Below, piece after piece: positions 1-31,861 of a DNA stretch of 31,861 nucleotides. The position numbers were made by a program, and so were the translations under genes. The notes below the pieces were generated by a model. It saw nothing but the letters and a program-made list of their open reading frames with translations. It had not been told where the DNA came from and searched no databases. Origin of the DNA: a virus; IMG/VR virus record IMGVR_UViG_3300034418_013792, positions 1-31,861 of that record. The stretch is one strand, 5' to 3'. The first letter of the stretch is position 1, and every line of letters starts with the position of its first letter.

Positions 1-340
1 CTTCATCCCCCCAATTATCATAAGGGATATTATCATCATCAATTGTAGCTACAATATTAGCACCTTGATCATAAGCAAATACAAAACCTATATTTCTTCG
101 TTGAATAGTTTTCCAACCAATAGTTTCACTTAATTCGGGATAAAATACTTCTTGTTGATCTGGGTGAAGGTAAATTACACATTCTCCAAATTCATTTTCT
201 AGGTCATTATACATTTCGTGGGGTGTTTTAGTATCACCTACAATGACAAATGTCCAATCTTTTTCTTTAGCTATTTTACAAAACCTACGAGTTGCTAGTG
301 TGGGTTCATTAATAGTTGTTGTAACTATAAATTTTTTCAT
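1..340 (-). CDS. STELLO-like (DUF288) glycosyltransferase, 3' part cut by window edge
   Basis: The gene starts with ATG at 340-338 and runs off the left edge, so only about 113 N-terminal residues are visible. They begin MKKFIVTTTINEPT, continue through VGDTKTP and a RRNIGFVFAYDQGA stretch, and reach TIDDDNIPYDNW. The order 'TTTINEPT, VGDxKTP, RRNIG-Y/F-xxA, DDDN' is what I know from the STELLO/DUF288 glycosyltransferase family, where the acidic DDD run is a metal and nucleotide-sugar binding candidate. It is the last visible gene of the sugar cluster. Its start shares one base with the stop of the preceding gene (TGATG), which suggests coupled translation. The acceptor is unknown. Family assignment is by remembered motifs, and the C-terminal half cannot be judged. 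Confidence 0.6.
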   Translation of the reverse strand, partial: MKKFIVTTTINEPTLATRRFCKIAKEKDWTFVIVGDTKTPHEMYNDLENEFGECVIYLHPDQQEVFYPELSETIGWKTIQRRNIGFVFAYDQGANIVATIDDDNIPYDNWGDE

Positions 341-1251
341 CAATTAAGTTTTTGTTTTACATCAATATACCATTTCTTAACATAGTTTCCAAATTTAGAT
401 TCGAATACCTGTCTTTGATTTGGGATATCATTTAATGTTAATAAATTTTTATAATAGGTTGAAAAATGTTCATCTTTTAAGGGGCCTGTAGAATGTTCGA
501 ATATAACTTGATTTTCTAGTAAATATTCTTTGACAGGGGTACCTTCTTTACGTGCTACATCACTAACTACCATTCCAAAATAATCCCAAGGTCCATAACC
601 TTTCCATTCATCAAAAATTGGAACTAATTTTTCTACAAATGATTTACTGTAAATATCAAACCATCCAGCCCATTTGAAATCATAAATTTCTTTTAATTGG
701 GGAGTATCTGAGTTGTTAGACATAAAATTAGCTATATCAAACACATCACCCTTATCCCATTCATTATAAGGGATATTCATATAATTGGGGTGAGTTAAAT
801 GGTCCCAAGTTACATCCCACATTTTATATATTTGGGGAGTAATAACAAAATATTCATCATTAACTGATTTGGCTGATTCAATTAAATAAAACAATAAATG
901 TTCATGAAACCACATATCAGGACAAATACTCATGTAATAATCAATATGAGGCCCAATAATAGATTTTTCTAAATCTAAATGTCCATATAATTCATCACCT
1001 TCATAAATAAAAGGTTTATGTTCAGCCCAATCTAGTAATTTAGAAATTGTTTTATATTTTTCAATAAAAAATTCTTTAGGTAATTTAGATTCTTCCCAAT
1101 TAATAATATAGCTAGAAAGATTAAGAGCAGTATCTATATAAATTGTATCTTCAGAATTAAGATAATAAGATGATTTTTTTAATTGGGAAAATGTTAATAA
1201 AGCATAATCAATTTCCCAAGGCATTATATGGTATTTGATTTTTATATTCAT
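340..1251 (-). CDS. Unrecognised protein, possible glycosyltransferase partner
   Basis: A 303-residue protein that I cannot assign to a named family. It has no signal peptide or membrane segment. It is rich in aromatic residues, with PDMWFHEHLLFYLIES near residues 111-126 and YFVITPQIYKMWDVTWD near 134-150, then KWAGWFDIYSK near 194-204 and GPWDYFGMV near 221-229. Trp/Asp-rich stretches of this kind with a 'xDxYFVxTP' strand are compatible with a GT-A type glycosyltransferase, but no clean DxD is assignable. It overlaps the preceding SDR by four bases (ATGA) and the following STELLO-like gene by one base, so it is embedded in the sugar operon. A role in glycan assembly is inferred from this position only. 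Confidence 0.45.
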   Translation of the reverse strand: MNIKIKYHIMPWEIDYALLTFSQLKKSSYYLNSEDTIYIDTALNLSSYIINWEESKLPKEFFIEKYKTISKLLDWAEHKPFIYEGDELYGHLDLEKSIIGPHIDYYMSICPDMWFHEHLLFYLIESAKSVNDEYFVITPQIYKMWDVTWDHLTHPNYMNIPYNEWDKGDVFDIANFMSNNSDTPQLKEIYDFKWAGWFDIYSKSFVEKLVPIFDEWKGYGPWDYFGMVVSDVARKEGTPVKEYLLENQVIFEHSTGPLKDEHFSTYYKNLLTLNDIPNQRQVFESKFGNYVKKWYIDVKQKLN

Positions 1252-2018
1252 TTTAATTTATTATAAACTTCTTTAATGCCTTGCTCTAATCCTATATAAT
1301 CTATTCCTAAATCAGTAAATGTACCTGAATATGAGGGGAAATCTCCTATCCATTCTTGTCTTATTCTTCGTCTTAGGCCTCCTTGATCATTAATTAAGGA
1401 AGCTATTTGGGTTAAAAATGGAGACTTATTATAAGTACAGTCAATAATTTTAGGAGGATTATCATTTTTTATATAAAAGTTAACTAATTTAATTAAATCT
1501 TTCATATAAAAAAAATCCATTTTCTTTTCAGCGAACACATATAGGTCTTCCCCTTTTAAATAACGTTTTATATTAGATTTAATAAACCTAGTATCTAACT
1601 CATTTTCATCAAAAACGGCAAATATTCTAATATTATAAAAATTATCCTCAGCATTACAAATATCTTTTATAATTTTTTTACTTAAACCATAAGGAGTAGT
1701 AGGTTGTCCTAACTCAGCACCAGATCCAAATTGAATTAATTTATTAAAATGAGACTTATTATAATATAAATTATAAAACATTTGAAGGTTTTGGTAAAAA
1801 ACCTCTCCAGTATCAGGTTTAAGGCGGCTACCTCCTTTAATAGCAGTATGGATAACTATATCAAAATGTTTATTAGTAAACCATTTATCAGTGGCTTCTT
1901 TGTCTGTAAGGTCAAAATCCTTTCTTGTGATACAAGTTACATTATAAGGAAATGAACTCAGGCCTTTTTTAAGGCTCTGAGCTATGTATCCATTTCCTCC
2001 TGTGATGAGAATTTTCAT
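1248..2018 (-). CDS. Extended SDR, NAD(P)-dependent sugar epimerase/reductase
   Basis: A 256-residue Rossmann protein. The nucleotide-binding turn TGGNGYIA is at residues 6-13, the VIHTAIKGG segment near 55-63, a Ser-containing strand FGSGAE near 97-102, and the catalytic pair Y110-GLS-K114. It is shorter than RmlB or GalE (about 320-340), nearer the size of reductase-type members such as RmlD or YerF-like ketoreductases. It follows panB with a TAATG overlap and overlaps the next gene by ATGA. Downstream of a dehydratase and a ThDP carboligase-like gene, a plausible job is the final 4-keto reduction of the nucleotide sugar. The substrate cannot be read from the sequence. SDR membership is secure; the reductase role is inference. 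Confidence 0.75.
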   Translation of the reverse strand: MKILITGGNGYIAQSLKKGLSSFPYNVTCITRKDFDLTDKEATDKWFTNKHFDIVIHTAIKGGSRLKPDTGEVFYQNLQMFYNLYYNKSHFNKLIQFGSGAELGQPTTPYGLSKKIIKDICNAEDNFYNIRIFAVFDENELDTRFIKSNIKRYLKGEDLYVFAEKKMDFFYMKDLIKLVNFYIKNDNPPKIIDCTYNKSPFLTQIASLINDQGGLRRRIRQEWIGDFPSYSGTFTDLGIDYIGLEQGIKEVYNKLK

Positions 2019-2953
2019 TAGCGCTTAATAACTGTTTTGTTATTAGTAATAGGGGTTACAGAGTGGTTTGTATTATTATAATAATCATGATCTTTTTCGT
2101 ATTTCCATTTTGAATCCCCTAACAATTTTTCAAGTTCATCTTCTTTAATTTCATAAAAATTTTCTTGAGATGGAAATTGACGATTACGAACTTCATCTAC
2201 ATACTCTGTAAGGGCACTAGTCATCATTTGGCCTGCTTCACAATAACGTTTTACAAATTTAGATTTAAATTCCCAAAACAGACCCATCAAATCATGAAAA
2301 ATAACTAATTGACCATCTACTTCATCACCAGCACCAATTCCATAAACTGGAATATCTAGAGCACGTGCAATCATGCCTGCAGGTTCTTTTGGCATGGCTT
2401 CAAGTAATAAAGCAGAACAACCTGCTTCTTGAAGAGCTAATGCTTGTTTAAGAACGATTTCAGCTTGTTCAGCTGTTTTACCTTGAACTTTGTAACCACC
2501 TAATTTAGCACGAGTATGGGGAGTAAGACCTAAGTGACTCATAACCATAATACCTGAATCAGCAATTGCTTTAATTCGTTCTACCATAGCTCCTTCAACT
2601 TTAACCATATCCATACCAGCTTTAATAAAACGACCGGCATTTTCAACTGCTAATTCATTTGAAGATTGATAAGACATATAAGGCATATCACCAATTAAAA
2701 ATGCATTATCAGCACCTCGACTTACGGCCTCACATGAACGGACCATATCATCCATAGTAACTGGAATGGTTGTTTTGTGTCCTAATGTGGTCATTCCTAA
2801 TGAATCACCTACTAGAATACAATCTACACCACTCATATCCGCAATACGAGATTGAGGATAATCGTAGGCTGTAACCATTACAGTTGGAACATTATTCTTT
2901 TTGTTGTTGTTTAAGGTTAGAATTGTTTTTTTCGTTTTGCTATCTGCAGCCAT
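2018..2953 (-). CDS. panB: Ketopantoate hydroxymethyltransferase (PanB family)
   Basis: A 311-residue TIM-barrel enzyme. PanB transfers a hydroxymethyl group from 5,10-methylene-tetrahydrofolate to 2-oxoisovalerate, a step of pantothenate synthesis. Family landmarks appear in order: VTAYDYP, VGDSLGMTTLGH (first metal Asp), LIGDMPYMSY (second metal Asp), MVKVEGA (Lys and Glu), MSHLGLTPH (His), GGYKVQG, LLLEAMP (catalytic Glu), GIGAG and DGQLVIFHD. All residues I remember as Mg/substrate ligands or catalytic in E. coli PanB are present, so it should be active. It carries about 45 more residues than E. coli PanB (264), mostly a hydrophilic C-terminal tail rich in Asn/Thr/Lys. No panC, panD or panE is in view, and the neighbours are sugar genes, so a role in hydroxymethylating a sugar precursor is possible but unproven. 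Confidence 0.92.
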   Translation of the reverse strand: MAADSKTKKTILTLNNNKKNNVPTVMVTAYDYPQSRIADMSGVDCILVGDSLGMTTLGHKTTIPVTMDDMVRSCEAVSRGADNAFLIGDMPYMSYQSSNELAVENAGRFIKAGMDMVKVEGAMVERIKAIADSGIMVMSHLGLTPHTRAKLGGYKVQGKTAEQAEIVLKQALALQEAGCSALLLEAMPKEPAGMIARALDIPVYGIGAGDEVDGQLVIFHDLMGLFWEFKSKFVKRYCEAGQMMTSALTEYVDEVRNRQFPSQENFYEIKEDELEKLLGDSKWKYEKDHDYYNNTNHSVTPITNNKTVIKR

Positions 2954-2971
2954 GATTTAATTGTTTTAAAT

Positions 2972-4750
2972 TTATTTTTCTAAAGTTATCCATCCTTGAG
3001 AATTATCTCTCCTTGGAATCATGTCAATAACCATATTTTCTTCAATTTGTTTATCAGTTAAATAAGGTGACATATCTTCCAATGGATTTCCAAATTCTAA
3101 TTTTGGAATTAATTTTTGTTCTTTATCAATTATAACATTTACTAATATACTACCTTCTTCTTGCATTGCCAAGTTAAGAATATCTTTATAATTATCTTTA
3201 GTAGCAGTTACAGCTTTAATCCCATAAGCTCCAGCTACTTTAACAAAGTCAGGTGCTGTATAATCTTGAGATTCAGTAGCAATATATCTTGAATCAAAAT
3301 ATGAATCCTGAAATTGTTTAATAATACCGTAACAATTGTTATTCATTATAAAAATTTTAACAGGTAGGTTATAATGTTTAATTGTTTGTAATTCCTGAAT
3401 ATTCATTTGAAAACCACCATCACCATCAATACAAATCACGGGACCAGTATTTCCAATAGCGGCTCCAATAGCTGAGGGTAACCCATAACCCATTGATGAG
3501 TTACCAAAATTAGAGAACATACGTTGGGTTCCTTTTGGTTTAATAGATTGCATAGACCAAACTAAGTGTCCTCCTTCATCAGGGATAATAATAGCATTAT
3601 CTGGTAGATGATTATTTAATTCTTCTAAGAATTCGTATGAAGTTAAAATATTATCCTTTAATGGGCGGTTATCTAATTGTAGGGTTTTGTATTTGTGGGT
3701 ATGTTCTTCCCAACTATTAATTGTTTGAGGTAAATTATTTAACCAACTTTCAATAAACCACTTAGCATCACTTACAACTGGTAAATCTATTTCAAGTCCT
3801 CTATCTTTATAAACTTCATTGTAATCAATATCAACCATTACTTTATAAGATTCTCTTGAGAATGTTTGAAGATTACCCCCAGTTTGTCTAGTATCTAATC
3901 TTGAACCAATTGAAATGAGCATGTCACAATTTTGGACTGCGAAATTGCCACCACGACTACCGTAAACACCAATATCACCTACAAATAGAGGATGATCATG
4001 AGGTAACAAATCAAACCCACCCCAAGATACTACAAAAGGAATATTAAGTTTTTCTACTAATTGTTTTACTTCATCTTTGGCTCCACTTAATCTAACCCCG
4101 TGACCCAATAATAATAGAGGGCGTAAACTGTTTTTTAATTTAGAATTAATAGTTTTAAGTACTGAATCAATATCAGGTGTGTGGAGTTTTATAGATTCGG
4201 TTAAGGTGAATTCTGTGATTATTTCATTTTGGATATTTACAGGAATATCTAACAACACCGGTCCGGGTCTTCCTATTTTAAGTTCAAATAATGTTTTATT
4301 CAACACTTTTTCTAATGAATCACCTGTTTCTAATCTAGTAGCAAATTTAGTAAAATGGCTAAAAGATTCGGCTACAGGCATTTCTTGAAAACCTACTTGG
4401 CGAGGTTTAGTACTTACTGAGGTTAAAGATTCATATGTGCTTACTTGTCCTGTAATAAAGACACAAGGAACTGATTCATACCAGCAACCACAAATACCAT
4501 TAAGTAAATTTTGGGCACCCGGACCACTTGTACTTAATACTGCCCCAATTTTACCTGTAGTTCTATAATATCCCTCAGCGGCCATAGCAGCAGATTGTTC
4601 ATGTTGAAAGCAGTAATATTCTGCTCCTTCTTTACGACCAATATAATCAATAGTAGGAACAATGGCCCCTCCAGTTACTAAAAAGAAAGTATCAATATTT
4701 TGATCTACTAGGTGATCTATAAGATGCTCTAAAACTTTTTTCTTTACCAT
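2972..4750 (-). CDS. ThDP-dependent enzyme of the acetolactate synthase family (YerE-like candidate)
   Basis: A 592-residue three-domain ThDP enzyme. The catalytic Glu is E51 in FQHEQSAAMAAEGY, followed by STSGPGAQN and ITGQV. The central domain has the LLLLGHGVR and GSRLDTRQTGG segments. The ThDP/Mg motif starts with GDG at 443-445 and ends with NNN at 470-472. The closest general family is the acetolactate synthase large subunit (IlvB), but there is no IlvN regulatory subunit next to it. Such enzymes occur in O-antigen and capsule clusters. YerE of Yersinia, which transfers a two-carbon unit from pyruvate to a 4-keto-3,6-dideoxy sugar, is of this family. Adjacency to a 4,6-dehydratase and an E1/ColD-like dehydratase favours that reading. 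Its start overlaps the upstream dehydratase stop by 7 bases. Substrate is inferred. Confidence 0.82.
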   Translation of the reverse strand: MVKKKVLEHLIDHLVDQNIDTFFLVTGGAIVPTIDYIGRKEGAEYYCFQHEQSAAMAAEGYYRTTGKIGAVLSTSGPGAQNLLNGICGCWYESVPCVFITGQVSTYESLTSVSTKPRQVGFQEMPVAESFSHFTKFATRLETGDSLEKVLNKTLFELKIGRPGPVLLDIPVNIQNEIITEFTLTESIKLHTPDIDSVLKTINSKLKNSLRPLLLLGHGVRLSGAKDEVKQLVEKLNIPFVVSWGGFDLLPHDHPLFVGDIGVYGSRGGNFAVQNCDMLISIGSRLDTRQTGGNLQTFSRESYKVMVDIDYNEVYKDRGLEIDLPVVSDAKWFIESWLNNLPQTINSWEEHTHKYKTLQLDNRPLKDNILTSYEFLEELNNHLPDNAIIIPDEGGHLVWSMQSIKPKGTQRMFSNFGNSSMGYGLPSAIGAAIGNTGPVICIDGDGGFQMNIQELQTIKHYNLPVKIFIMNNNCYGIIKQFQDSYFDSRYIATESQDYTAPDFVKVAGAYGIKAVTATKDNYKDILNLAMQEEGSILVNVIIDKEQKLIPKLEFGNPLEDMSPYLTDKQIEENMVIDMIPRRDNSQGWITLEK

Positions 4751-5694
4751 ATAAACTTATTCTTGTAATATTTTACGATAGTAGGTAATTCTTCATCAAA
4801 TACTTTTTTAGGTGTCCAACCTAATGATCTTAATTTAGAATCATCTAAAGCATATCTAACATCTTGACCATCACGATTAAAAGATAAGTCTAAGTTATCA
4901 TTAATATTTAAATTACTATCATATAATTTAATGATTTTTTCTACGGTATCCAAATTAGTCTGTTCAAAACCTCCACAAACATTATAAATTTCATTTTTAA
5001 CTCCGGCTTCAATTATAGAAATTACAGCATTAGCAGTATCACTAGCATGCAACCAATTTCTTATAGGGGTACCGTTATTATGTAGAGGAATTTTTCTGCC
5101 TAATTCTATAAATTTAATAGTTTTTGGAATAAGTTTTTCGGTGTATTGACCTAATCCATAATTGTTAGTAGGTCTTAATATAATATAAGGAATATTATAA
5201 GTCCTAGACCATGCTTGAATTAACATATCAGCGGCAGCTTTAGTTGCTGAGTATGGGTTAGAGGGTTTAAGTAAATCGGTTTCAATATGTTCTCCTTCTA
5301 CAATATCACCATATACCTCATCTGTACTAAAATGGAAAAATATAGGGGTATTAGAATTTTCTTGTCTGTAATTTTTAAGTAACTCAAGTAAATGATGAAC
5401 TCCATTTATATTAGAATGAATAAAATCATCACTTTTAATAATAGAATTACCTACATGAGTTTCAGCAGCAGTGTTAATTATATAATCACAGTCATATAAA
5501 AACTCTATATCATTAATATCTTTTTCTTCAAATGTAAAATTAGGATATTGATTAAATACATTTAATAATTCTTTATTAGAGGCATAAGTACATTTATCTA
5601 TGCCTCTAACATACCATCCTTTTTCTAAACATTTTTCAGTTACATATTGTCCAATAAAACCTAAACAACCTGTTACATAAACTACTTTTTTCAT
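4744..5694 (-). CDS. NDP-hexose 4,6-dehydratase (RmlB-like)
   Basis: A 316-residue extended SDR. It has TGCLGFIG at residues 8-15, DKCTYASN at 33-40 (matching the DxLTYAGN of dTDP-glucose 4,6-dehydratases), AAETHVGNSI at 76-85, the catalytic T124-D125-E126 in STDEVYGD, the Y148-SAT-K152 pair, RPTNNYGLGQYTEKLIP near 173-189 and RNWLHASD near 207-214. The Asp-Glu pair and Tyr/Lys are those used to make the 4-keto-6-deoxy intermediate. The nucleotide (dTDP, CDP, UDP or GDP) cannot be told. It overlaps the PLP gene by four bases and the ThDP gene by seven, so the three form one tight unit. It is slightly shorter than cellular RmlB (about 350). Confidence 0.85.
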   Translation of the reverse strand: MKKVVYVTGCLGFIGQYVTEKCLEKGWYVRGIDKCTYASNKELLNVFNQYPNFTFEEKDINDIEFLYDCDYIINTAAETHVGNSIIKSDDFIHSNINGVHHLLELLKNYRQENSNTPIFFHFSTDEVYGDIVEGEHIETDLLKPSNPYSATKAAADMLIQAWSRTYNIPYIILRPTNNYGLGQYTEKLIPKTIKFIELGRKIPLHNNGTPIRNWLHASDTANAVISIIEAGVKNEIYNVCGGFEQTNLDTVEKIIKLYDSNLNINDNLDLSFNRDGQDVRYALDDSKLRSLGWTPKKVFDEELPTIVKYYKNKFIW

Positions 5695-6854
5695 TTATTA
5701 AAATATTCTTTAATTTTATCACAAACATAATCAACATCTTCAGTAGTCATTCCATGATGTGCTCCTAATAAAAATCCATTTTTCATAATAGTATCTGAAT
5801 TTTCAAATTCTTGAAGATATTCTCTATAAATTGGATGACGGGTTACATTCCCAGCAAATGTTACTCTAGTTTGAATATTATTTTCTTCTAAAAATGTCAA
5901 TAAACCTAATCTATCTTCAGTTTGAAGGGGAATAGCTAACCAATTTGGTTTAATACTATCATTAGGTAATGTAATTTCTTTTACATTTTTAAGGTTTTTA
6001 AGATATCTTTCAAAATTAGTTCTTCTAATACCTTCAAATTTTTTAAATCGTTCTAATTGAACTAATCCAAAAGCAGCATTCATTTCAGAAGATTTAAAAT
6101 TATAACCTAATACACCATATAAAAATTTATGGTCATAAGGAATACCATCTACTTTATGATTAAACCTATCATCCATAATTTCACTATCATCTCCTATGCG
6201 ACCCCAATCTCTATATTGTAGTGCTCTATTGCGAAATTTTTCGTTATTAAACATGACCATCCCACCTGCACCACCTGCCGTGATTACATGAGAAGCATAA
6301 AAGCTAGTCGTTGATATATCGCTATCTTCCGTATAGGTAATAGTATCGGCTGAATCTTCAATTAATATAATATCTTCTCTATTAATTCTTTTTAATTCTG
6401 ATCTTAACAGTTTCCAATCAGGTTTATTACCTATTAGATTAGGCACCATAATAGCTTTAATATCTTTAAACATTTCCTCTTCAGGATTTGTTAAAACATC
6501 AATTATACTTTTAACTGAAGGAACATATGTAGTTAGTTCGACATCTACAAAAACAGGTTTTAAACCTAACTGAATAATAGGGGCTAATGTAGTGGAAAAT
6601 GTACAAGCAGGTGTAATAACTTTACTTCCTTTAGGAAGATTAATACTCGCTAAGGCTAATAAACATGCTGAAGAACCTGAATTAACAAATACTCCTAGTT
6701 TTTTACCAAACATTTTAGAAATTCGTTCTTCAAATTCCTTAGAACGAGGTCCAAAACCTGCTAACCAACCTTCTCTTAAACAAGCTTCTACTGCTTTAAT
6801 TTCTTCTTCCCCATAAGCTTCAAATTTATTAGGGGCATACCATACTTTTTTCAT
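5691..6854 (-). CDS. E1/ColD-type PLP(PMP)-dependent NDP-sugar 3-dehydratase, DegT/DnrJ/EryC1/StrS fold
   Basis: A 387-residue sugar-aminotransferase-fold protein: FVNSGSSACLLALAS at 56-70 for phosphate binding and LIEDSAD at 164-170 for the PLP-contacting Asp. At the position where aminotransferases carry the PLP lysine, the segment SFYASHVITAGGAGGMV has His189. That His is the hallmark of 3-dehydratases ColD and E1 (AscC/DdhC/RfbH), which remove the 3-OH of 4-keto-6-deoxy sugars. The following RDWGR (215-219), PYDHKF and LGYNFKSSEM match E1 best. However, the C-x-C...C cluster that E1 uses for its [2Fe-2S] centre just after RDWGR is absent here (IGDDSEIMDDRF). A ColD-like glutamate-dependent cycle is therefore more likely than E1/E3 electron transfer. 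No E3 reductase is in the window. The fold is secure; the substrate is inferred. Confidence 0.85.
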   Translation of the reverse strand: MKKVWYAPNKFEAYGEEEIKAVEACLREGWLAGFGPRSKEFEERISKMFGKKLGVFVNSGSSACLLALASINLPKGSKVITPACTFSTTLAPIIQLGLKPVFVDVELTTYVPSVKSIIDVLTNPEEEMFKDIKAIMVPNLIGNKPDWKLLRSELKRINREDIILIEDSADTITYTEDSDISTTSFYASHVITAGGAGGMVMFNNEKFRNRALQYRDWGRIGDDSEIMDDRFNHKVDGIPYDHKFLYGVLGYNFKSSEMNAAFGLVQLERFKKFEGIRRTNFERYLKNLKNVKEITLPNDSIKPNWLAIPLQTEDRLGLLTFLEENNIQTRVTFAGNVTRHPIYREYLQEFENSDTIMKNGFLLGAHHGMTTEDVDYVCDKIKEYFNK

Positions 6855-6860: not shown

Positions 6861-7667
6861 TTAAATTAAACTGTTAAGTTTAAATATTTCTGTTATTTCA
6901 TTTATTATTCGTTGTTCATAATTTTGATATTCTTGAACTCGATTATAATTTTCTTCTATAATATCTTTTTTACTATTATAAAAATCAGGAGTTAAATTAT
7001 TAGCTATCTGAATTAATTGATCAACACTTTGAAAATTAATTATGCCTTTAGGGTTGTAAAATTTATTAATATCTGAACACCCCCAATATATAGGAATTGT
7101 TTTTAACAACATACAATCTGTAATTTTTTCAGTAAAGTACCCATTATGAGAAGTATTTTCAATTACCACAGCAAACATTGGATCACCAAAGATTTCTTCT
7201 TTAGTAATTAACGCTGCAGGTAGTATTGTTTCTCCTTTAAATTTAAATCGAGTAGGTATTTTTATTTCTTTTTCTCTATTAAATAATTCATGTCTTAAAC
7301 TATGCCCATATGTTAATAATTTATCTCCGCATAAGTGACCTAATTCAAATGTTTTTTCTCTAAATTTTAAACCTATTTCTTCTGTTATCCATGAACTACC
7401 AAAAGGTAAAAATATAGCATTTTCACAATTATTTAATACTTTATCATCCCAAGTTAATATTATGTTAAATAAATGTTGATTTTTAATAACCCAATCATGA
7501 TATCCAAAATATTCATTAGGTTCTTGTAATACAAAGATATTAATTGATGATAAATCTTCATTAGTTTTAGGGACATAATCTACAAATAAAGAAAAATCAA
7601 TATTTTTTAAATGATCTAATTTTGTTTCAAAACTAGATTTTTCGAAATGGTTTATAAATAATTTCAT
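6861..7667 (-). CDS. Glycosyltransferase family 10 (fucosyltransferase-like)
   Basis: A 268-residue protein whose C-terminal half carries the family-10 signature: AVVIENTSHNGYFTEKITD near residues 165-183, then TIPIYWGCSDINKFYNPKG near 189-207. This corresponds to the FALxFENS, GYxTEK and IPIYwG motifs of alpha-1,3/1,4-fucosyltransferases, where the Glu/Asn/Lys residues bind the donor nucleotide. The N-terminal half is degenerate, as usual for the family. No signal peptide or transmembrane anchor is visible, so it is probably cytosolic. It is separated by 6 bases from the PLP gene and one base from the FkbM gene. It may transfer a 6-deoxy or dideoxy sugar made by the neighbouring enzymes; acceptor unknown. 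Confidence 0.8.
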   Translation of the reverse strand: MKLFINHFEKSSFETKLDHLKNIDFSLFVDYVPKTNEDLSSINIFVLQEPNEYFGYHDWVIKNQHLFNIILTWDDKVLNNCENAIFLPFGSSWITEEIGLKFREKTFELGHLCGDKLLTYGHSLRHELFNREKEIKIPTRFKFKGETILPAALITKEEIFGDPMFAVVIENTSHNGYFTEKITDCMLLKTIPIYWGCSDINKFYNPKGIINFQSVDQLIQIANNLTPDFYNSKKDIIEENYNRVQEYQNYEQRIINEITEIFKLNSLI

Positions 7668-7668: not shown

Positions 7669-8286
7669 TTATTTTATTTTTTTATAAATTTCATCACATC
7701 CTAATTTTATTACACGTGAATAATTTTTATCTTTAAAGAAATTTATAAATTTATCATCATAATCATTATTTTCTACTGTTATTACATCTATATTATATTT
7801 AGTAAAATCAATAGATTGTAATATTTTTAATTCATTACCCTCAGTATCTAAAGATAAAAAATCAATATCATATACATTTATTAAACTATCAAATGTTCTA
7901 CATTCAACATCAATATAATCATATTGTTGTGTATCTTCTAAATTATATTCATTAATTCTATAAATAGCCTTTTGACTAAACTCATCTACTAAACCACTTA
8001 AAACATTAGGTCCACCTTTTTTAATTTGGAAAAACTGAGCTGTTTTATTTTCATTGCTTATAGCATATGGAAAACATTTACATTTTCTTATGGTTTTTAA
8101 TTGATTAAATATTTCAGGATTAGGTTCTATACAAAAACCAGTCCATCCTAGATTTTCAAAAAATAATGAATTGCTATCAACTTCACCATCATATGCCCCT
8201 ATGTCAACAAACACTCCATTTTTTTTGTCTTTGAAATAAGTAGTATAAACAAATTCATCTTGTCTAAATTGGGAATAAAATTTCAT
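7669..8286 (-). CDS. FkbM-family SAM-dependent O-methyltransferase
   Basis: A 205-residue methyltransferase. The SAM-binding start FVDIGAYDG is near residues 26-34, followed by GWTGFCIEPNPEIF near 47-60 with the acidic Glu for the SAM ribose, FPYAISN, and the IDFLSLDTEGNELKIL segment near 141-156 with the DxEG motif of FkbM proteins. FkbM enzymes O-methylate sugars and polyketides and are common in glycan clusters. It lies directly after the paratose-epimerase-like gene with no gap. It probably methylates a sugar hydroxyl before or after transfer. Family call is firm; the target is unknown. Confidence 0.85.
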   Translation of the reverse strand: MKFYSQFRQDEFVYTTYFKDKKNGVFVDIGAYDGEVDSNSLFFENLGWTGFCIEPNPEIFNQLKTIRKCKCFPYAISNENKTAQFFQIKKGGPNVLSGLVDEFSQKAIYRINEYNLEDTQQYDYIDVECRTFDSLINVYDIDFLSLDTEGNELKILQSIDFTKYNIDVITVENNDYDDKFINFFKDKNYSRVIKLGCDEIYKKIK

Positions 8287-9330
8287 TTAACTTTTTTTAT
8301 ATATGTTTTCTATAATATACGATAAATCTTTTGTAATTCTAAATTTAGGATAGTGTTCTTTTATTTTAGATAAATCACTATAATAACAAATATGATCACC
8401 TATTCTATTAGTATCAACATATTCATACACCATTTGTTTATTAGATACCTGTTCTACTAAATTAAATGCTTCTAATATTGAACATGAATTATCTTTACCC
8501 CCACCAATATTATATACTTCAGCAACACGAGGATCAGCAATGAATAAATCCATAAATTGAATTACATCTGATGAGTGGATATTATCTCTAACTTGTTTTC
8601 CCTGGTATCCAAATATATTGTATTTAGTCCCATCAGCATTACATTTAACTAAGTAATTTAAAAATCCATGCAGTTCAACACCACTATGGTTTTCACCTGT
8701 TAAACATCCACCTCTTAAAATACATGATGGTATTCCAAAGTAACGACCATATTCTTGAACCATTACATCTGCTGCTACTTTACTAGCACCAAATATACTA
8801 TGTTTTGATTGATCAATACTAAAATTTTCATTTATACCATTCTTATATTCAGGGCTAAAATAATCATAACGAGTAGGTAATTCAATTAATTCTAATGTAT
8901 TAGGTTTATCACCATATACCTTATTAGTAGACATATGAATAAAAATACAATCTTTATTTGTTTGTCTAACAGCTTCTAATAAATGTAAAGTACCATTAGC
9001 ATTTGTTTCAAAATCATCAAATGGAATATCAGCTGCTTTATCATGGCTTGGTTGTGCGGCCGTATGAATAATAACATTAAATTTAATTGTTTTAAATAAT
9101 TCTAATACTGTATTTTTATCTCTAATATCAATATTAAAATTTTTAAATGTTGGATATTGTGTTTGTAATTGATTTAATCTAGATAATGTGCTACCTTTTT
9201 CTCCAAAAAATACTTGTCGTTGATTATTTTCAATTCCATAAACTTGAAACCCTTGACTGCAATAATAATCTACTGCTTCTGAGCCGATTAACCCACCAGC
9301 TCCTGTTATTAATATATTTTTAATCTTCAT
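8287..9330 (-). CDS. NAD-dependent epimerase of the CDP-paratose 2-epimerase-like family
   Basis: A 347-residue extended SDR with TGAGGLIG at residues 9-16, IIHTAAQPSHDKAA near 88-101, MSTNKVYGD, then HSIFGASKVAADVMVQEYG and LRGGCLTGENHSGVELHGF. The STNKVYG element and the long C-terminal half are those of proteins annotated as CDP-paratose (tyvelose) 2-epimerase-like. The usual YxxxK appears as F-GAS-K, so the catalytic Tyr is replaced by Phe. My recollection is that many members of this subfamily share FGASK whereas Salmonella RfbE has YGCSK. A 2-epimerase of 3,6-dideoxy sugars would fit the E1/ColD-like gene 1.4 kb downstream. It overlaps the preceding gene by 11 bases. The exact reaction is uncertain. 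Confidence 0.75.
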   Translation of the reverse strand: MKIKNILITGAGGLIGSEAVDYYCSQGFQVYGIENNQRQVFFGEKGSTLSRLNQLQTQYPTFKNFNIDIRDKNTVLELFKTIKFNVIIHTAAQPSHDKAADIPFDDFETNANGTLHLLEAVRQTNKDCIFIHMSTNKVYGDKPNTLELIELPTRYDYFSPEYKNGINENFSIDQSKHSIFGASKVAADVMVQEYGRYFGIPSCILRGGCLTGENHSGVELHGFLNYLVKCNADGTKYNIFGYQGKQVRDNIHSSDVIQFMDLFIADPRVAEVYNIGGGKDNSCSILEAFNLVEQVSNKQMVYEYVDTNRIGDHICYYSDLSKIKEHYPKFRITKDLSYIIENIYKKS

Positions 9331-10833: not shown

Positions 10834-11475
10834 TTAGTATGGAAATTTTAACCCAGTATATAAATTAAATTGATAAGATGCTTGTAAAGTTGCTAGTGCA
10901 TGTCCAGATTCAGATGTAACAATACAGTTTATAAAATGGTTATTTTCATACAAATAATCTAAATTTTCTACTGGGGTGCAATTATATATTAAGCAATTGT
11001 TTATAGTAGGGAGTATATCCCAATTATTTCTATTAACCTCAATAAACCCCATGCCTAATTCTTTAGCTGCAGCTTTAACTGCTAAAGCATAACCCCCATT
11101 TCCTAATATGTAAAATTCCTTATAGGATTCTATTTTCCCTAAATAATCTAAAGCAGCTAAATAATCAGTATTATAAGCTGTTAATTTTCCTTCATTATTA
11201 ATTACAGTATTAGCTGCTCCTACTTTAGCAGATGGATCTATTTTATCCACATAATTTAAAACTTCTTTTTTATAAGGCATTGTAATAGCAAATCCCTTAA
11301 TATTTAAAGTTTTAACTGCATTAACTGCATCTTTTATATTATCTACTGAAAATGATTTGTAAATTTTATTTAAACCATAGTAATAAAAGGCTGAGTTCAT
11401 CATTTGGCAACCCGTGTTACCTGCTTTTTTAGCAAATGAACAATATATTTCTGTATCTTTATTTATCCAACTCAT
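10834..11475 (-). CDS. Shikimate dehydrogenase-like oxidoreductase (AroE family), short
   Basis: A 213-residue protein. The catalytic-domain motif GFAITMPYKKEVL (residues 61-73) holds Lys69 and is followed by VGAANTVINNEGKLTAYNTD (85-104), where N89, T90 and D104 match the substrate and catalytic residues of AroE. The NADP-binding turn is LGNGGYALAVKAA at 124-136 with NRN near 148-150, and NCTPVE near 165-170 matches the family's NxTPxG loop in part. The protein is about 60 residues shorter than cellular AroE, and the canonical N-terminal SxxHN substrate site is degenerate (NTGCQMMNSAF). It may thus act on another cyclic polyol or sugar acid. No other shikimate gene is in view. It overlaps the transketolase C gene by 17 bases. 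Confidence 0.78.
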   Translation of the reverse strand: MSWINKDTEIYCSFAKKAGNTGCQMMNSAFYYYGLNKIYKSFSVDNIKDAVNAVKTLNIKGFAITMPYKKEVLNYVDKIDPSAKVGAANTVINNEGKLTAYNTDYLAALDYLGKIESYKEFYILGNGGYALAVKAAAKELGMGFIEVNRNNWDILPTINNCLIYNCTPVENLDYLYENNHFINCIVTSESGHALATLQASYQFNLYTGLKFPY

Positions 11476-12370
11476 TAGATATTTTTTCTTTTATTCTATT
11501 AGCACTTAAACCATATTTTTCATATAAATCCGATGGTGTGCCTGATTCAGGGAATACATCGTTTACTCCTATTCTATGAAGTTTTCCTTGAATTCCTTCT
11601 TCAGCCATTACTTCTGCAACACTAGATCCTAAACCACCAATTATTGAATGGTCCTCAACTGTAAAAATATTACCTTTAGAGTAATGCTTTATAATTTCTT
11701 TATCTAAAGGTTTAATAGTAGGCATATCAATAACAGTTACATCTAAATCTTTAGTTGCCTCTATAACATCAGGTAAAATACATCCTGTAGAGAATACTAC
11801 TCCATTAGATCCTTCTTTACAAATAATTCCTTTTCCTAATTCAAAAGAAATATTTTCATTATATAATTCTTTAACAGGTTGTCTACCTAATCTTAAATAA
11901 TAAGGATTATCTAAATCATTATCACAAAGCCATTTTACAACTGATTTTGTTTGGTTATATGTTGAAGGATTTAATACGGTCATGCCAGGTAGTGATCTCA
12001 TTAAACTTAAATCTTCTAGTCCCATTTGAGTTACACCATCTTTTCCAATAGCTAACCCACCATGAGTTCCTACTATAATACATGGGGCATTAGAGTATGA
12101 AATTGAACATCTAATAGTATCATATTTGCCTGTTAAAAATGAAGCAAAGGAAGCTAAAAATACTTTATACCCATATTCAGATAAACCTGAAGCTACTCCT
12201 ATCATATTATTTTCTGCAATCCCTACTTCAAAAAATCTATCAGGGTAAGCTTCACCAAATTTACTTAATTTAGTAGCTTTTCCTAAATCAGCATTAACCC
12301 CTACTATATTAGGGTTATCTTTTCCTGATTCTACTAGTTGTTCTCCAAATGCATCACGCGTTGCTTTCAT
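11459..12370 (-). CDS. Transketolase, C-terminal subunit (pyrimidine-binding and C domains)
   Basis: A 303-residue protein corresponding to the second half of a split transketolase. It has EVGIAENNMIGVASGLS near residues 48-64 with the cofactor-activating Glu53, FASFLTGKYDTIR, GTHGGLAIGKDGVTQMGLEDL, the PGMTVLNPS segment, and the regulatory-looking C domain with TVEDHSIIGGLGSSVAEV. Transketolase moves two-carbon ketol units between sugar phosphates. Split forms are common in bacteria and in glycan clusters. It follows the N-terminal subunit with a 17-base overlap, ensuring balanced synthesis of both chains. In this setting it may supply sedoheptulose-7-phosphate or a related ketose. Confidence 0.88.
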   Translation of the reverse strand: MKATRDAFGEQLVESGKDNPNIVGVNADLGKATKLSKFGEAYPDRFFEVGIAENNMIGVASGLSEYGYKVFLASFASFLTGKYDTIRCSISYSNAPCIIVGTHGGLAIGKDGVTQMGLEDLSLMRSLPGMTVLNPSTYNQTKSVVKWLCDNDLDNPYYLRLGRQPVKELYNENISFELGKGIICKEGSNGVVFSTGCILPDVIEATKDLDVTVIDMPTIKPLDKEIIKHYSKGNIFTVEDHSIIGGLGSSVAEVMAEEGIQGKLHRIGVNDVFPESGTPSDLYEKYGLSANRIKEKISNELDK

Positions 12371-13145
12371 AACTTAATTCTTTTAAGGATTTAACATATT
12401 CTTCTTGATTTGGGGCTTTAGCATGCCATTCAGGTTGTTCCATAAATGAAATACCTTTACCTTTTACTGTATTCAAGATTACACAAGTAGGTTTACTAAC
12501 TTTTACATATTTATCTTCTAAAGTAGATGTAATTTGATCTAAATCATGCCCATCTATATTATAAACATCCCAACCAAAAGATTCTATTTTAGCAGATAAA
12601 TCTTTCATGTCTAATATATCCTTTACATAACCATCATTTTGTGATTTATTGCTATCTATAAAACATACTAAATTATCCAATTTGTATTTAGGGGCTAACA
12701 TAAAAGCTTCCCAAATTTGTCCTTCTTGAATTTCACCATCTCCTAAAATACAAAAAATACTATTAGATAAACCTTTAGTTTTACAGGCTAAAGCATGGCC
12801 TATACTTATACTAAGGCCTTGGCCCAAAGCTCCTGTAGTAGCATGCATATAAGGAAGTCTAACTTTATCTGGATGTCCTTGTAAGGGTGAATTTACTTCT
12901 CTAAAATTATCTAAAGTATCAATATAACCTAATTCATATAGGGCAGCATATAAAATAGGTACTGCATGTCCCTTAGATAAAATTAATTTATCTTTATTAG
13001 GAGTTATTAAATCATAGTTACTATATAAATAAGCTACAATTTCAGCTATTGAAAAACTACCACCAATATGGCCAGATTGTTTTTCATATACCATGTCTAA
13101 AACATGTTTTCTTAGTTTATTTGGATCAATTTTCATTTTCAACAT
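12354..13145 (-). CDS. Transketolase, N-terminal subunit (ThDP diphosphate-binding domain)
   Basis: A 263-residue protein with GHIGGSFSIAEIVAYLY from residue 25 (His26), LILSKGHAVPILYAAL with His60, GHPDKVRLPYMHATTGALGQG near 90-110, and the ThDP/Mg motif GDGEIQEGQIWEA starting at 135 and closing at N166 in FIDSNKSQND. These match bacterial split transketolase alpha chains. ATG codons at 13145 and 13136 are both possible; the shorter start still overlaps the SIS gene by 11 bases, the longer by 20. No ribosome binding site decides between them. It is paired with the C-terminal subunit just downstream to form an alpha2-beta2 type enzyme. Confidence 0.88.
   Translation of the reverse strand: MLKMKIDPNKLRKHVLDMVYEKQSGHIGGSFSIAEIVAYLYSNYDLITPNKDKLILSKGHAVPILYAALYELGYIDTLDNFREVNSPLQGHPDKVRLPYMHATTGALGQGLSISIGHALACKTKGLSNSIFCILGDGEIQEGQIWEAFMLAPKYKLDNLVCFIDSNKSQNDGYVKDILDMKDLSAKIESFGWDVYNIDGHDLDQITSTLEDKYVKVSKPTCVILNTVKGKGISFMEQPEWHAKAPNQEEYVKSLKELSYESNA

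Positions 13146-24498: not shown

Positions 24499-24499
<1 letters not shown>
24227..24499 (-). CDS. Small protein of unknown function between groEL and gp44
   Basis: A 90-residue protein. It contains VPPGDRWSLTNDLSKVVYNSLTETLEAWFQ near residues 16-45, then FRLAPLDSKLYVIRQQEEEIIPEEP, giving a helix and a beta hairpin, and an acidic stretch. It lacks any motif I know. Its ATG overlaps the groEL stop by one base (TAATG), and it ends right at the gp44 start, so it is co-translated with both. Function unknown. Confidence 0.6.
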
Positions 24500-26403
<1,904 letters not shown>

Positions 26404-26407
<4 letters not shown>

Positions 26408-27306: not shown

Positions 27307-28041
27307 TTAAAAACTAGTTTCTGCTTTGCGAACCATAAAATATTCGCTAGAAACTATATCTGTTTTAAACTCTAATTTCATTAATCCCATACTACTTACA
27401 AACATTTTCCCTTCTTCCATATCTTTATTTACTTGTAAAATAGATTTAAACATTTCAGAATTAAATGGTATTTTCATATTCGTTTCTTTAATATTTCCTG
27501 AGATTTGATAGGTAATTTTGTTATTATGTCCTGCTTCATCTCCAAAAACAAATTCACAAATATCTTCACCATCTAAATTTTGGGTAGTAGTAAATAACAT
27601 ATTATCTGTTTCTCCTAAAGCACTCTTAGCTTTAATTAAGTTTGTAATATCTTCGGATTCTAAATTAATTTCTATTACCCATTCAGGTATATTAACCGTA
27701 GCTATTTTATTCATTAACAAAGGATCTGATAGAGCATATGTTAAATTAAAACTTGCGTCTGAAATGTAAAGTTTTGTATATATCTTATGGGATTTTTCTA
27801 ATTCCAATAATAACTCACCTTGACAAATTGATAACAGATTAGACAATTTTTTAGTATCATAAATAGCTATCTCACTATCTTCTAATTTAAAATCAGAACA
27901 AGATATTTTACCTATAATATCTTTAGTTGGACTCATAAAATCAATTTCAAGATTATTATTTTTAATAACCCACTTAACTGATTGATTAACACCTAAATGG
28001 TATTTGTTGAGTATCGATTGAAGTAATATTTTATTTATCAT
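27307..28041 (-). CDS. 45: Sliding clamp, DNA polymerase accessory protein (gp45-like)
   Basis: A 244-residue protein with the layout of T4 gp45 (228). The N-terminal repeat contains SEIAIYDTKKLSNLLSIC near residues 56-73 (gp45: VAIYDLNGFLGILSL) and ALSDPLLM near 103-110 (gp45: PAADPS). A second domain runs from EINLESEDITNLIKAKSAL to a final strand SSEYFMVRKAETSF, like the DHF-ended tail of gp45. It forms the trimeric ring that tethers polymerase and, in T4, also activates late transcription. It overlaps the polymerase C-terminal gene by four bases, so the clamp is co-translated with the polymerase. Confidence 0.85.
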   Translation of the reverse strand: MINKILLQSILNKYHLGVNQSVKWVIKNNNLEIDFMSPTKDIIGKISCSDFKLEDSEIAIYDTKKLSNLLSICQGELLLELEKSHKIYTKLYISDASFNLTYALSDPLLMNKIATVNIPEWVIEINLESEDITNLIKAKSALGETDNMLFTTTQNLDGEDICEFVFGDEAGHNNKITYQISGNIKETNMKIPFNSEMFKSILQVNKDMEEGKMFVSSMGLMKLEFKTDIVSSEYFMVRKAETSF

Positions 28042-28967
28042 AAGTTAAAAAACATTTCACGAAATGGGTTTAAATTTAAATTCCAATTTAGATCGCTATA
28101 AAAACCCTCCAATTTATTAAGCAAAATAGATTCAAATATTTTTTCTCTATCAGCATATTGTTCAATAAATGTATTAATTTTTTCTGGGATATCAAACTCT
28201 AAAAATGCAAGGGCTTCAATTTGGTAAGGATTTGGTTTTAAATATATCCATTTTACTTTATCACCTTGAGTAATATAACTATGTTTTTTATTTAAACCCC
28301 AAAATTTAACTAAATCATTATATTTTATAACTGCTCTTACAGCAGCAGGGGCACCTTTAGCTATAATAGAAAACATTTCTCCTGCTCTAGCTTTTCGTTC
28401 AGTGTATTTATTTAAAGTTTTAACGGAAGTAGGATTACCTAATTGAATAAGAGAAATACTTCCATCTAAAATTTCTTGTCTAAATTCCTTAACTCTTTTA
28501 TCAATATCACTCTGTTTAGCTCCTTTTAAAACATCAATCAAAGCTTGTTTAAAAAATTTACCTAATACAGGTGGAAAATTAGCTTTTTTAAATTCAAGTC
28601 CTTTTACATCAAGAGATTCTTTTACAATACCTTCTTGTTTTGTAATCCATTGGGCATAACGACGAGTTGCCCTAAAATAAGCTGAACGAATAACACATTC
28701 AGTCTTCATTTCTAATCTATGTTCCTGAACATTAAAACAATTTTTAGCTAAGTCACTATAAGAATTAGTGATAATATCTTGGTATTGTAAAGCAATTTCT
28801 TCCAATTTGTTATCTTTATCCTCACTTGACATTTCATTAAAATCAGGATATAAATGTCTTAATAAAGGTTCAGCATGGATATAGATAGAATCTGTATCAG
28901 AATATGCTACATAATTAGTATCTTCAGGATCGCAAATCCACCAAGGAGTATCTTCTAAATGCTTCAT
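28038..28967 (-). CDS. 43B: DNA polymerase family B, C-terminal part (gp43B): palm motif C and thumb
   Basis: A 309-residue protein that starts just before motif C: YVAYSDTDSIY at residues 19-29, with catalytic Asp24 and Asp26. Then comes ECVIRSAYFRATRRYAQWI (palm/thumb boundary), the KGLEFKKANFPP region near 119-130 and a thumb domain to FREMFFNL, the last residues being a likely clamp-binding tip as the C-terminus of gp43 binds gp45. It lacks all upstream motifs, which lie in the gene at 29237-30922. The two would have to assemble to form one active polymerase. The 870 total residues compare with 898 in T4 gp43. It follows the 88-codon gene after two bases. Confidence 0.92.
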   Translation of the reverse strand: MKHLEDTPWWICDPEDTNYVAYSDTDSIYIHAEPLLRHLYPDFNEMSSEDKDNKLEEIALQYQDIITNSYSDLAKNCFNVQEHRLEMKTECVIRSAYFRATRRYAQWITKQEGIVKESLDVKGLEFKKANFPPVLGKFFKQALIDVLKGAKQSDIDKRVKEFRQEILDGSISLIQLGNPTSVKTLNKYTERKARAGEMFSIIAKGAPAAVRAVIKYNDLVKFWGLNKKHSYITQGDKVKWIYLKPNPYQIEALAFLEFDIPEKINTFIEQYADREKIFESILLNKLEGFYSDLNWNLNLNPFREMFFNL

Positions 28968-28969
28968 AT

Positions 28970-29236
28970 TTAAAATCTATCATCGGGGCCTGGGGATTTA
29001 ACAATAGCATTGCTCCATTTATCTCCTTTATTATTTCGAAGTACCTCAGCAGGAATAATGGATATGTAATCATTCATAATCTTAAAGTTCCCTCCTTGTT
29101 TTAACATTTTCTTGAAAAAAGTAATATGTTTTTCTTCCCAAAAGGTACTTAAAGCTAATAATTCTTCTTTTTCTACTACATTGTCATTAATTTTTATAGT
29201 GACACCTTTTCTAATCGATTGTGGTTTTAATGGCAT
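28970..29236 (-). CDS. 88-codon gene inserted between the two halves of DNA polymerase
   Basis: An 88-residue basic protein: PQSIRKGVTIKINDNVVEK, LLALSTFWEEKHITFFKKML near residues 27-46, then a Lys/Asn-rich end with IIPAEVLRNN. It starts right at the stop of the polymerase N-terminal gene (TAAATG) and ends two bases before the C-terminal gene, so it fills the split exactly. I see no LAGLIDADG, GIY-YIG or HNH motif, so it is not an obvious homing endonuclease. It could be a remnant, an assembly factor or a new domain. I do not recognise it. Confidence 0.65.
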   Translation of the reverse strand: MPLKPQSIRKGVTIKINDNVVEKEELLALSTFWEEKHITFFKKMLKQGGNFKIMNDYISIIPAEVLRNNKGDKWSNAIVKSPGPDDRF

Positions 29237-30922
29237 TTAATTTAATTTAGTTTCTTTTCTTAATACTTTATTCATATGTCGGTTAGCAGTTAAAGCACTT
29301 TCTTGAATAATTCTTTGACCACTTAAAGTAATGGCTTCAGATAAAATAACATTACCATAACGGAAACTACCAAGAGCAGTTGCACCATACAAACTATTTA
29401 ACAAAATCTTCATTGTGTATTGTTTCATATGGAAACCAGCACCAGCTTCTTTATCACCTGATTTGTATGCTTTTTTCATTTGGTTTTTATATAATACTCT
29501 TTCATCAAACCATTTTTTCAAAATAGTAGATAGTACTGATTCTTTATCTGTTCTAAAGAACACACCATTAGCAGAAATAGACCATTTATTTTTTTCTATA
29601 AATTTAACTAATTCTTTTACTTTAAGTTTAGTTTTTTTACGTTTAACATTTTCAATAATTAATTCTTCTTCAGGTTCTTTAGATTTTAAATCATTAAGAC
29701 CTAAACGATTATTTCTATCATCAGCATCAATAATACGACCAACCATTGTTTCTTTACCAATGTTTATAGTCATTATAATTGAAGGATATAGTGAAGTTAA
29801 ATCTTCATCAAACATATAATTGTAAATACCTGCTTTAGGACAGAATAAGTAACCTCCAGCATAATTTTTTTTAGAAAGTGGGTTTCGGTCTTTAGCTGGG
29901 GGTATAAGTCCTTCACTCAATAAATAAGCAGAAATAGCCCCATCTTGAGTTTTAGTATTAGCATAAACTTCACTATAATTGTGTTTACCTTTATGAGATA
30001 GGTTTTTTACAAGTGCTAGATATTCTAGTTTTTCATCTAATACTTTTAAAATTTCAACATCCCGAAAGTTATACTGGATAAATTTATTTACATCAGTTTC
30101 AAATAACTTATCTAAATTTCCTTCATATTCAATTTTATTTATACCAGCATATTTTTCTCCAATAGCATCTAGTTTAAATGATGGTTCATCAGCCCAACTA
30201 AACTTTTTATGCAGACGCATATAATCAAGAGATTCAACCCCTGCAATTTGGATATATTGATTTACAGACCATGGAGTTTCTCTTACATACCCAATAGGAG
30301 ATAAATAACGAGCTACATCTTCACCTAAAACATTACACATTCTATAATAAAGATAAGGAATATCAAAATAATCACTATTCCATCCTACCACAATATCAGG
30401 ATCTATTTCTCTAAATTTTTCTATAAATTTAAGTAATAGCTCTTTTTCAGTACGACAAGGGATAATTTCTTTGTTTTTAGCTTTAGTATGTTTTATTTCA
30501 TCTTTAACATCTAAAATAAGGATAGCCCATTGATCTAATTGTTTATCATACCAAGCAATTGAAGTTACTTTTTTGGGGGCTGATTTAATATATTCCTCAG
30601 TTAAGGCATCCCCCATTTCAGTTTCAATATCAAAAAATACTTCACGATGGGTTTTAGAGGGTTCATCATTAATTCCATATTTTTCAATAAGAAATTTTTG
30701 ATAAGGAGTCATATCATGGAAATGAAGTTTTGGATTTTCTTTTTCCCATTTAGAAATCTTTTTCAAGGGCTCACCATTTAATCCTACATGGGTGGCATCA
30801 GCTTCATTACATTCTGTATAAACTTGGTTTATCCATTCTACTTTACTGTAGCCTGTATCCTCCCATAAGTGAATAAGAAACTTATTTTTACCTAAACTTT
30901 GAGCAAATGCTTTTTTATACAT
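29237..30922 (-). CDS. 43A: DNA polymerase family B, N-terminal part (gp43A): 3'-5' exonuclease, motifs A and B
   Basis: A 561-residue protein. The proofreading exonuclease has FFDIETE (D98, E100), GWNSDYFDIPYL (180-191) and YNFRDVE (Y284, D288), so all three exo motifs are intact. Polymerase motif A is EDLTSLYPSII with D374. Motif B is KILLNSLYGATALGSFRYG from K505. The chain then stops after NRHMNKVLRKETKLN, before motif C, which lies in the separate gene at 28038-28967. Several Aeromonas T4-like phages are known to have gene 43 split into two proteins, and this is the same kind of arrangement. The start overlaps the MazG-like gene stop by one base. Confidence 0.94.
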   Translation of the reverse strand: MYKKAFAQSLGKNKFLIHLWEDTGYSKVEWINQVYTECNEADATHVGLNGEPLKKISKWEKENPKLHFHDMTPYQKFLIEKYGINDEPSKTHREVFFDIETEMGDALTEEYIKSAPKKVTSIAWYDKQLDQWAILILDVKDEIKHTKAKNKEIIPCRTEKELLLKFIEKFREIDPDIVVGWNSDYFDIPYLYYRMCNVLGEDVARYLSPIGYVRETPWSVNQYIQIAGVESLDYMRLHKKFSWADEPSFKLDAIGEKYAGINKIEYEGNLDKLFETDVNKFIQYNFRDVEILKVLDEKLEYLALVKNLSHKGKHNYSEVYANTKTQDGAISAYLLSEGLIPPAKDRNPLSKKNYAGGYLFCPKAGIYNYMFDEDLTSLYPSIIMTINIGKETMVGRIIDADDRNNRLGLNDLKSKEPEEELIIENVKRKKTKLKVKELVKFIEKNKWSISANGVFFRTDKESVLSTILKKWFDERVLYKNQMKKAYKSGDKEAGAGFHMKQYTMKILLNSLYGATALGSFRYGNVILSEAITLSGQRIIQESALTANRHMNKVLRKETKLN

Positions 30923-31445: not shown

Positions 31446-31861
31446 TTAAATATTATGTCCTCCGTTATTAATCTTTAGACTGTCAAAAAATTCTTTTCTT
31501 GCTTGATTTGTATCGTCTCTAAATGCACCTGATGCTTTAGTAGTAACCATAGCAGCCCCTTGATGTTTTACACCCCTACAACTTACACAATTGTGAGTAC
31601 CTACAATAGTTACAATAACACCTTTATTACCTTCAGTAATTTTATCTACTGCATTATGAATTGCTGATGTTAATTGTTCTTGGATAGCACCTCTACGACC
31701 AAATAATTCTACAATTCGGTTTAATTTAGATAAACCAATTACTTGCCCATCTTTACCTGCAATATAACCGATATGAACTACACCTCCAATTGTTTGGTGG
31801 TGGTGTGAACACATTGAGGTAAGAGGAATATTACGCTCAATAATTACTCCATCGTAACCAT
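31446..31861 (-). CDS. folE: GTP cyclohydrolase I (FolE), N-terminal part beyond the window
   Basis: The visible part (about 138 residues to the stop) begins GYDGVIIERNIPLTSMCSHHH. The zinc-site CxHH, VIGLSKLNRIVELFGRR and QEQLTSAI, and THNCVSCRGVKHQG (His, Cys, Arg-Gly-Val) match the FolE family; the final TTKASGAFRDD fits its TxxxxGxF end. The enzyme opens GTP to give 7,8-dihydroneopterin triphosphate, for folate or, in some phages, for 7-deazaguanine (queuosine-like) bases. No queD, queE or queC is in view. As panB needs methylene-folate, a phage-borne folate step could be linked, but this is speculation. The first ATG in the visible part is internal, so the gene starts past the right edge. 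Confidence 0.92.
   Translation of the reverse strand, partial: GYDGVIIERNIPLTSMCSHHHQTIGGVVHIGYIAGKDGQVIGLSKLNRIVELFGRRGAIQEQLTSAIHNAVDKITEGNKGVIVTIVGTHNCVSCRGVKHQGAAMVTTKASGAFRDDTNQARKEFFDSLKINNGGHNI

Follow-up and report, generated by a model that had tools for sequence, protein, structure and literature searches.

The locus at positions 1248 to 6854 raises the question of what sugar a phage could make with a tightly packed set of sugar-biosynthesis genes and, if that sugar is carbon branched, where the branch comes from. The window, i.e., the whole 31,861-base virus record that was analyzed (28.9% GC), is T4-like, judged by the genes that it carries for a polymerase, a clamp loader, and a sliding clamp, and its DNA polymerase shares 34% identity with the one in the nearest named phage. 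The interval is filled by five ORFs, all on the minus strand, with overlaps of 1 to 7 bases and one 18-base gap, and each operon family is backed by Pfam/NCBIfam profile matches. The ORFs and profile matches confirm the four genes that a sequence-only reading had named in this packed unit, which encode a 4,6-dehydratase, a His-type PLP 3-dehydratase, a ThDP enzyme, and an SDR, but that reading had overlooked a fifth gene, for PanB (2018 to 2953), between the ThDP and SDR genes. Since the operon gene set is found again in dozens of viral contigs, it is not a product of chance.

Further minus-strand genes adjoin this interval on both sides. The final complete gene of the unit within the window (340 to 1251) has no Pfam, NCBIfam, or PHROGs match and encodes a probable glycosyltransferase of GT-A fold, based on an AlphaFold model (pLDDT 90) and on top Foldseek matches that are GT-A glycosyltransferases (E ~1e-6). 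At the other end are genes for a GT10-family-like glycosyltransferase (6861 to 7667; PF00852, 29 bits, above the cut-off), an FkbM-family methyltransferase (7669 to 8286; PF05050, with TIGR01444 above its cut-off), and a CDP-tyvelose/paratose 2-epimerase-like SDR (8287 to 9330; best solved match 1orr, the CDP-tyvelose 2-epimerase, 132 bits). The last of these is the CDP-paratose 2-epimerase-like SDR that had been noticed earlier at a distance of 1.4 kb, and whether it belongs to the branched-sugar pathway is uncertain.

The two sugar dehydratases are encoded next to each other. The NDP-hexose 4,6-dehydratase (4744 to 5694, minus strand) scores 300 bits with the dTDP model TIGR01181, which is under the equivalog cut-off, and far lower with both the CDP and GDP models (66 bits with the CDP model); it thus does not read as the CDP-glucose 4,6-dehydratase of the yersiniose pathway. 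It carries the motifs STDEVYG and YSATK, its best solved match is 2hun, and by sequence it appears to be of the dTDP type rather than the CDP type. The PLP/PMP enzyme (5691 to 6854, minus strand; RfbH model, 253 bits) has His189 in place of the Schiff-base lysine of aminotransferases (SFYASHVITAGG). Its best solved matches are E1 and ColD, with Yersinia E1 the closest. An aminotransferase had been the alternative to a 3-dehydratase here, and the dehydratase histidine, which is present in the window enzyme and kept in 91 of 93 distinct E1-like genes of such loci, argues against it. The [2Fe-2S] cysteine motif that follows RDWGR in part of the RfbH-like relatives is absent from this enzyme, which reads RDWGRIGDDSEIMDDRF, and as regards the missing iron-sulfur cysteines its sequence is ColD-like. 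This variant E1-like type, with SFYASHVITAGG and no iron-sulfur cysteines, is common to a few viral relatives.

Structure prediction and phylogeny both place the ThDP enzyme (2972 to 4750, minus strand), for which IlvB had been the competing identity, with YerE-like lyases. Its best solved relative by sequence is JanthE, a characterized YerE-like lyase of Janthinobacterium sp. HH01 (PDB 8rph, 8rpi, and 8rpj), and in a structure search with a predicted model (mean pLDDT 84), JanthE chains occupy ranks 1 to 6 and outrank all acetohydroxyacid synthases (AHAS). In a maximum-likelihood tree, 28 glycan-cluster enzymes, including the window enzyme and JanthE, are split from eight AHAS with a support of 100/100. 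These eight AHAS are themselves a clade (99/95), JanthE sits within a group that also contains viral members, and a larger, quick tree agrees with the split; JanthE stands in for YerE and ErwE as the representative of the YerE-like family in these trees. PDB 5ahk, titled acetohydroxy acid synthase of Pseudomonas protegens, also falls in the YerE-like clade and may be PpYerE. The window enzyme shares clade and fold with JanthE, but the two are only ~32% identical and the ThDP motif is CDG in JanthE and GDG in the window. It is below every cut-off of the NCBIfam AHAS equivalog models, and the genes that adjoin it, for the His-type 3-dehydratase and the 4,6-dehydratase, are those expected for deoxy-keto-sugar synthesis. 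The tree split and the structure search rule out a plain AHAS identity, and we conclude that the enzyme is very probably a C-branching lyase.

PanB (minus strand; PF02548, 331 bits) scores 288 bits with TIGR00222, for which the equivalog cut-off is 208, and keeps the Escherichia coli PanB residues D45, S46, D84, K112, E114, H136, and E181. The pocket residue I202 is unchanged as well; it was therefore dropped as a substrate marker, and the substrate specificity of PanB is not readable from its sequence. When the window PanB was used to scan IMG/VR, 67 loci with 55 distinct PanB proteins were retrieved, and a same-strand ThDP gene adjoins PanB in 55/55 of these, with a median gap of 8 bases and with both gene orders represented. 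These loci, many of which are on fragmentary records, are kin that were deduplicated by exact protein identity alone, so that the counts and p-values given here overstate independence. A second scan, with an ordinary bacterial PanB heading the query so as to reduce query bias, yielded 67 distinct viral PanB loci. A ThDP gene is in the flank of all but one of them (66/67), and the sole exception starts at a contig end. The cellular control was the set of the 77 nearest cellular PanB loci, of which only L081 and L083, which lie in sugar clusters, have a ThDP gene. The viral PanBs are 70 to 87% identical to that of the window, while their ThDP partners fall into several groups that are only ~35% identical. 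ThDP-linked PanBs make up their own clade (support, 97). A dozen alignment columns are specific to this clade, some of them close to E181 and I212, and three of its PanBs have no ThDP gene next to them. One locus (L331) has two genes between PanB and ThDP, and another (L079) has a viral-type PanB with no adjacent ThDP gene. Taken with the operon context, we consider it likely that PanB makes the donor for the ThDP enzyme.

The converse does not hold, in that PanB is missing from 22 of 65 distinct viral ThDP loci, often with similar neighbors; L202, for example, closely resembles the window operon except that a different gene is at PanB's position. No residue or alignment column of the ThDP enzyme distinguishes the PanB-linked from the PanB-less enzymes. 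In three loci, an HpcH/HpaI-family aldolase gene lies 5 to 7 bases after ThDP (L207, 7768 to 8589; L209, 7766 to 8590; L211, 7757 to 8503), and a fourth, L269, carries a homologue of this aldolase. The family is found in 4/22 PanB-less loci versus 0/43 PanB-positive loci (P = 0.011), with matches that are few and weak (26 to 33 bits, cut-off 25). In L182 and L193, both from Omnitrophota, the gene adjoining ThDP is of the altronate-dehydratase type (altronate/galactarate). Enzymes of the PanB, HpcH/HpaI aldolase, and altronate-dehydratase types can each yield 4-hydroxy-2-oxo acids, and one such enzyme adjoining ThDP is what a donor-supply role predicts. The Omnitrophota ThDP proteins of L182, L192, and L193 are encoded by long frames; that of L193 has ~850 amino acids, with ~250 extra N-terminal residues.

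Based on the computed families and catalytic residues, the places of the ThDP enzyme and PanB in their trees, and the near-strict pairing of the two in viruses, we infer the following reactions, together with the donor, the nucleotide, and the destination of the sugar. The 4,6-dehydratase would convert NDP-glucose (dTDP-glucose, judging by the enzyme type) to NDP-4-keto-6-deoxyhexose, from which the His-type PLP enzyme would strip the 3-oxygen to give a 3,6-dideoxy-4-keto sugar. PanB, using methylene-tetrahydrofolate, would hydroxymethylate a small 2-oxo acid, of which pyruvate or 2-oxobutanoate is more likely than 2-oxoisovalerate, and thereby yield a 4-hydroxy-2-oxo acid. The YerE-like enzyme would decarboxylate this acid and attach the resulting hydroxyacyl group at C-4 of the keto sugar. 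The SDR (1248 to 2018, minus strand; PF01370, 74 bits, with an RmlD-like N terminus), which comes after ThDP-PanB or after ThDP alone in many viral operons, is a candidate branch ketoreductase and would reduce the branch ketone, and a glycosyltransferase would transfer the finished sugar, whose destination may be the virion, DNA, or the host surface. The product of the operon is thus probably a carbon-branched 3,6-dideoxy sugar, with the branch donor supplied by the operon's own PanB. The identity of the donor as exactly 4-hydroxy-2-oxobutanoate is a tentative proposal, to which we give somewhat less than even odds. With respect to the broader picture, we favor, with some reserve, a mostly viral module in which a recruited PanB tailors a hydroxymethylated 2-oxo acid, in which the gene adjoining ThDP (for PanB, an aldolase, or a sugar-acid dehydratase) sets the branch, and which would form hydroxyacyl-derived branches that are undescribed.

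The closest precedents differ in informative ways. In vitro, formaldehyde addition by E. coli PanB works with many 2-oxo acids (PMC7611260), and among YerE-like enzymes, YerE favors pyruvate, while ErwE and MMAR_2332 favor hydroxylated 2-oxo acids (for ErwE, e.g., 4-hydroxy-2-oxobutanoate) (PMC12247030). The erwiniose system of Pectobacterium atrosepticum resembles the proposed pathway in that a YerE-like enzyme adds a unit derived from a hydroxylated 2-oxo acid to a 4-keto-3,6-dideoxy sugar; PanB is unmentioned in that work (PMC12247030), whereas the phage operon has PanB fixed beside the ThDP enzyme. The phage dehydratase, unlike that of the erwiniose system, is of the dTDP type, and ErwE is likened to the phage enzyme by description rather than by sequence. 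The phage PanB, in turn, has the family and all of the checked catalytic residues of ketopantoate hydroxymethyltransferase but falls in a separate clade, whose links are to ThDP and sugar operons and not to panC. Among the papers searched, none connects PanB with sugar branching. The proposed route would link one-carbon metabolism to sugar branching and would be a new role for PanB. It would also make these ThDP enzymes a set with predicted unusual donors, useful for tertiary alcohol synthesis.

Could the branch instead be that of yersiniose A, in which case the ThDP enzyme would place the two-carbon unit of pyruvate on the 4-keto sugar, with an unrelated role for PanB? The phage operon has the same enzyme series as the YerE pathway of Yersinia pseudotuberculosis (4,6-dehydratase, E1-type 3-dehydratase, YerE-like ThDP enzyme, and SDR), and YerE-like relatives without PanB exist. 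However, the YerE donor is pyruvate and its sugar is CDP linked, whereas the phage adds PanB and has an E1 homologue without iron-sulfur cysteines; furthermore, no E3 is recognized among the annotated genes of the window, unlike in the yersiniose A pathway. A pyruvate donor would leave unexplained both the presence of PanB beside ThDP in all 55 of the viral loci as well as in two cellular clusters and the aldolase at the PanB position, and we consider this alternative unlikely. The sequence-only reading had proposed that this phage has a pathway to a carbon-branched 3,6-dideoxy sugar. That idea is supported, since the ThDP enzyme groups apart from IlvB and the PLP enzyme is not aminotransferase-like, but the close analogy with yersiniose and its pyruvate donor is not, given the tie of PanB to the ThDP gene and the apparent dTDP type of the 4,6-dehydratase. 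Because the operon PanB is so strictly tied to the viral ThDP gene, we favor an erwiniose-like 4-hydroxy-2-oxo-acid donor and a hydroxyacyl branch, and the branch is probably not the pyruvate-derived unit of yersiniose. The same sugar could also be reached in the reverse order if the ThDP enzyme added the acetyl group of pyruvate and PanB then hydroxymethylated the branch on the nucleotide sugar. The gene set would be identical, and an acyloin branch might chelate the metal much like a 2-oxo acid. PanB keeps all of the residues known to bind a small 2-oxo acid, however, and substitution by an aldolase or a sugar-acid dehydratase is better suited to donor supply, which makes this order improbable.

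Two further alternatives would separate PanB from the branching step. The acetolactate-synthase-like ThDP family and the PanB family both act in the valine-pantothenate route, and an AHAS-like enzyme together with PanB might raise pantothenate and coenzyme A synthesis in the host. An ocean virome study interpreted a viral pantoate transferase in this way, as raising pantothenate and coenzyme A (PMC8940887). However, the ThDP enzyme is not an AHAS by the tree, the sugar-gene neighbors are fixed, and no PanC, PanE-type, or over-cut-off IlvC gene was found in any of 40 PanB-positive viral records, many of them fragments, while control genomes matched as expected. The missing partner genes and the ThDP tree argue against the auxiliary role in pantothenate synthesis, which we regard as very unlikely, and viral PanB that is counted as a vitamin B5/coenzyme A gene in ocean viromes (PMC8940887) may often serve a sugar pathway. 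It is equally improbable that the PanB product is joined to the sugar through its carboxylate (as an acyl or amide) rather than by a carbon-carbon bond. The L079 PanB, which adjoins an ATP-grasp gene and has no ThDP gene nearby, would fit such a linkage, but it is one case versus >60 with ThDP, and Pfam/NCBIfam recognize no ligase gene in the window operon. The PanB-ATP-grasp pair of L079 (9983 to 12253), whose contig is assigned to a single cell of Marinimicrobia, is perhaps another use of the PanB product.

Cells seldom carry PanBs of the ThDP-linked type. The counts are 1/297 for the family to which Pelagibacter genome G001 belongs, 2/201 for that of Prochlorococcus genome G003, and 1/199 for the phylum of the Marinimicrobia genome, and 285 Omnitrophota include two clear cases. 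The Omnitrophota cluster L083 has the gene order RfbF-RfbH-RfbG-ThDP-PanB-SDR, in which the Rfb genes, named by reading the genes, are for glucose-1-phosphate cytidylyltransferase, E1, and CDP-glucose 4,6-dehydratase; it therefore reads as a CDP-3,6-dideoxyhexose set with PanB incorporated. In the G003 family, a 130,604-base contig (C3 of G063; L365) has a PanB-ThDP pair together with a gp32-like gene, which suggests that one lineage may have a cyanobacterial host, and its B12-binding radical SAM gene resembles one in the Chloroflexi cluster L081. Among 50,697 named-phage records, there is no close relative of the PanB or the ThDP gene. The panB gene of Microcystis phage MaAM05 was set aside, as it adjoins panC and suf genes, as was a gene of Campylobacter phage A11a, which groups with AHAS in the ThDP tree. 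The phage records MW495066 (L158) and MG065691 (L159) carry ordinary metabolic genes (panB/panC/suf and an AHAS-type gene), which may be host DNA in the assemblies. Plasmids were rejected as the origin of the PanB-ThDP pair, since the matches listed are of the ordinary IlvB and panBC types only.

Farther along the window, the same sugar island also has a split transketolase (11459 to 13145), with the N-terminal half at 12354 to 13145 and the C-terminal half at 11459 to 12370, which is a second ThDP carbon-transfer unit. Its neighbors include SIS-domain, nucleotidyltransferase-like, HAD, and shikimate-dehydrogenase N-domain genes, and homologues of both halves are near PanB-ThDP in L064 and L080. 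The window also carries GroEL-like (24499 to 26121) and GroES-like (26105 to 26407) chaperonin genes, a DNA polymerase in two ORFs of 561 and 309 amino acids with an 88-amino-acid ORF between them (28038 to 30922), and a GTP cyclohydrolase I (FolE)-like gene (31446 to 31814) that is cut near the window end.
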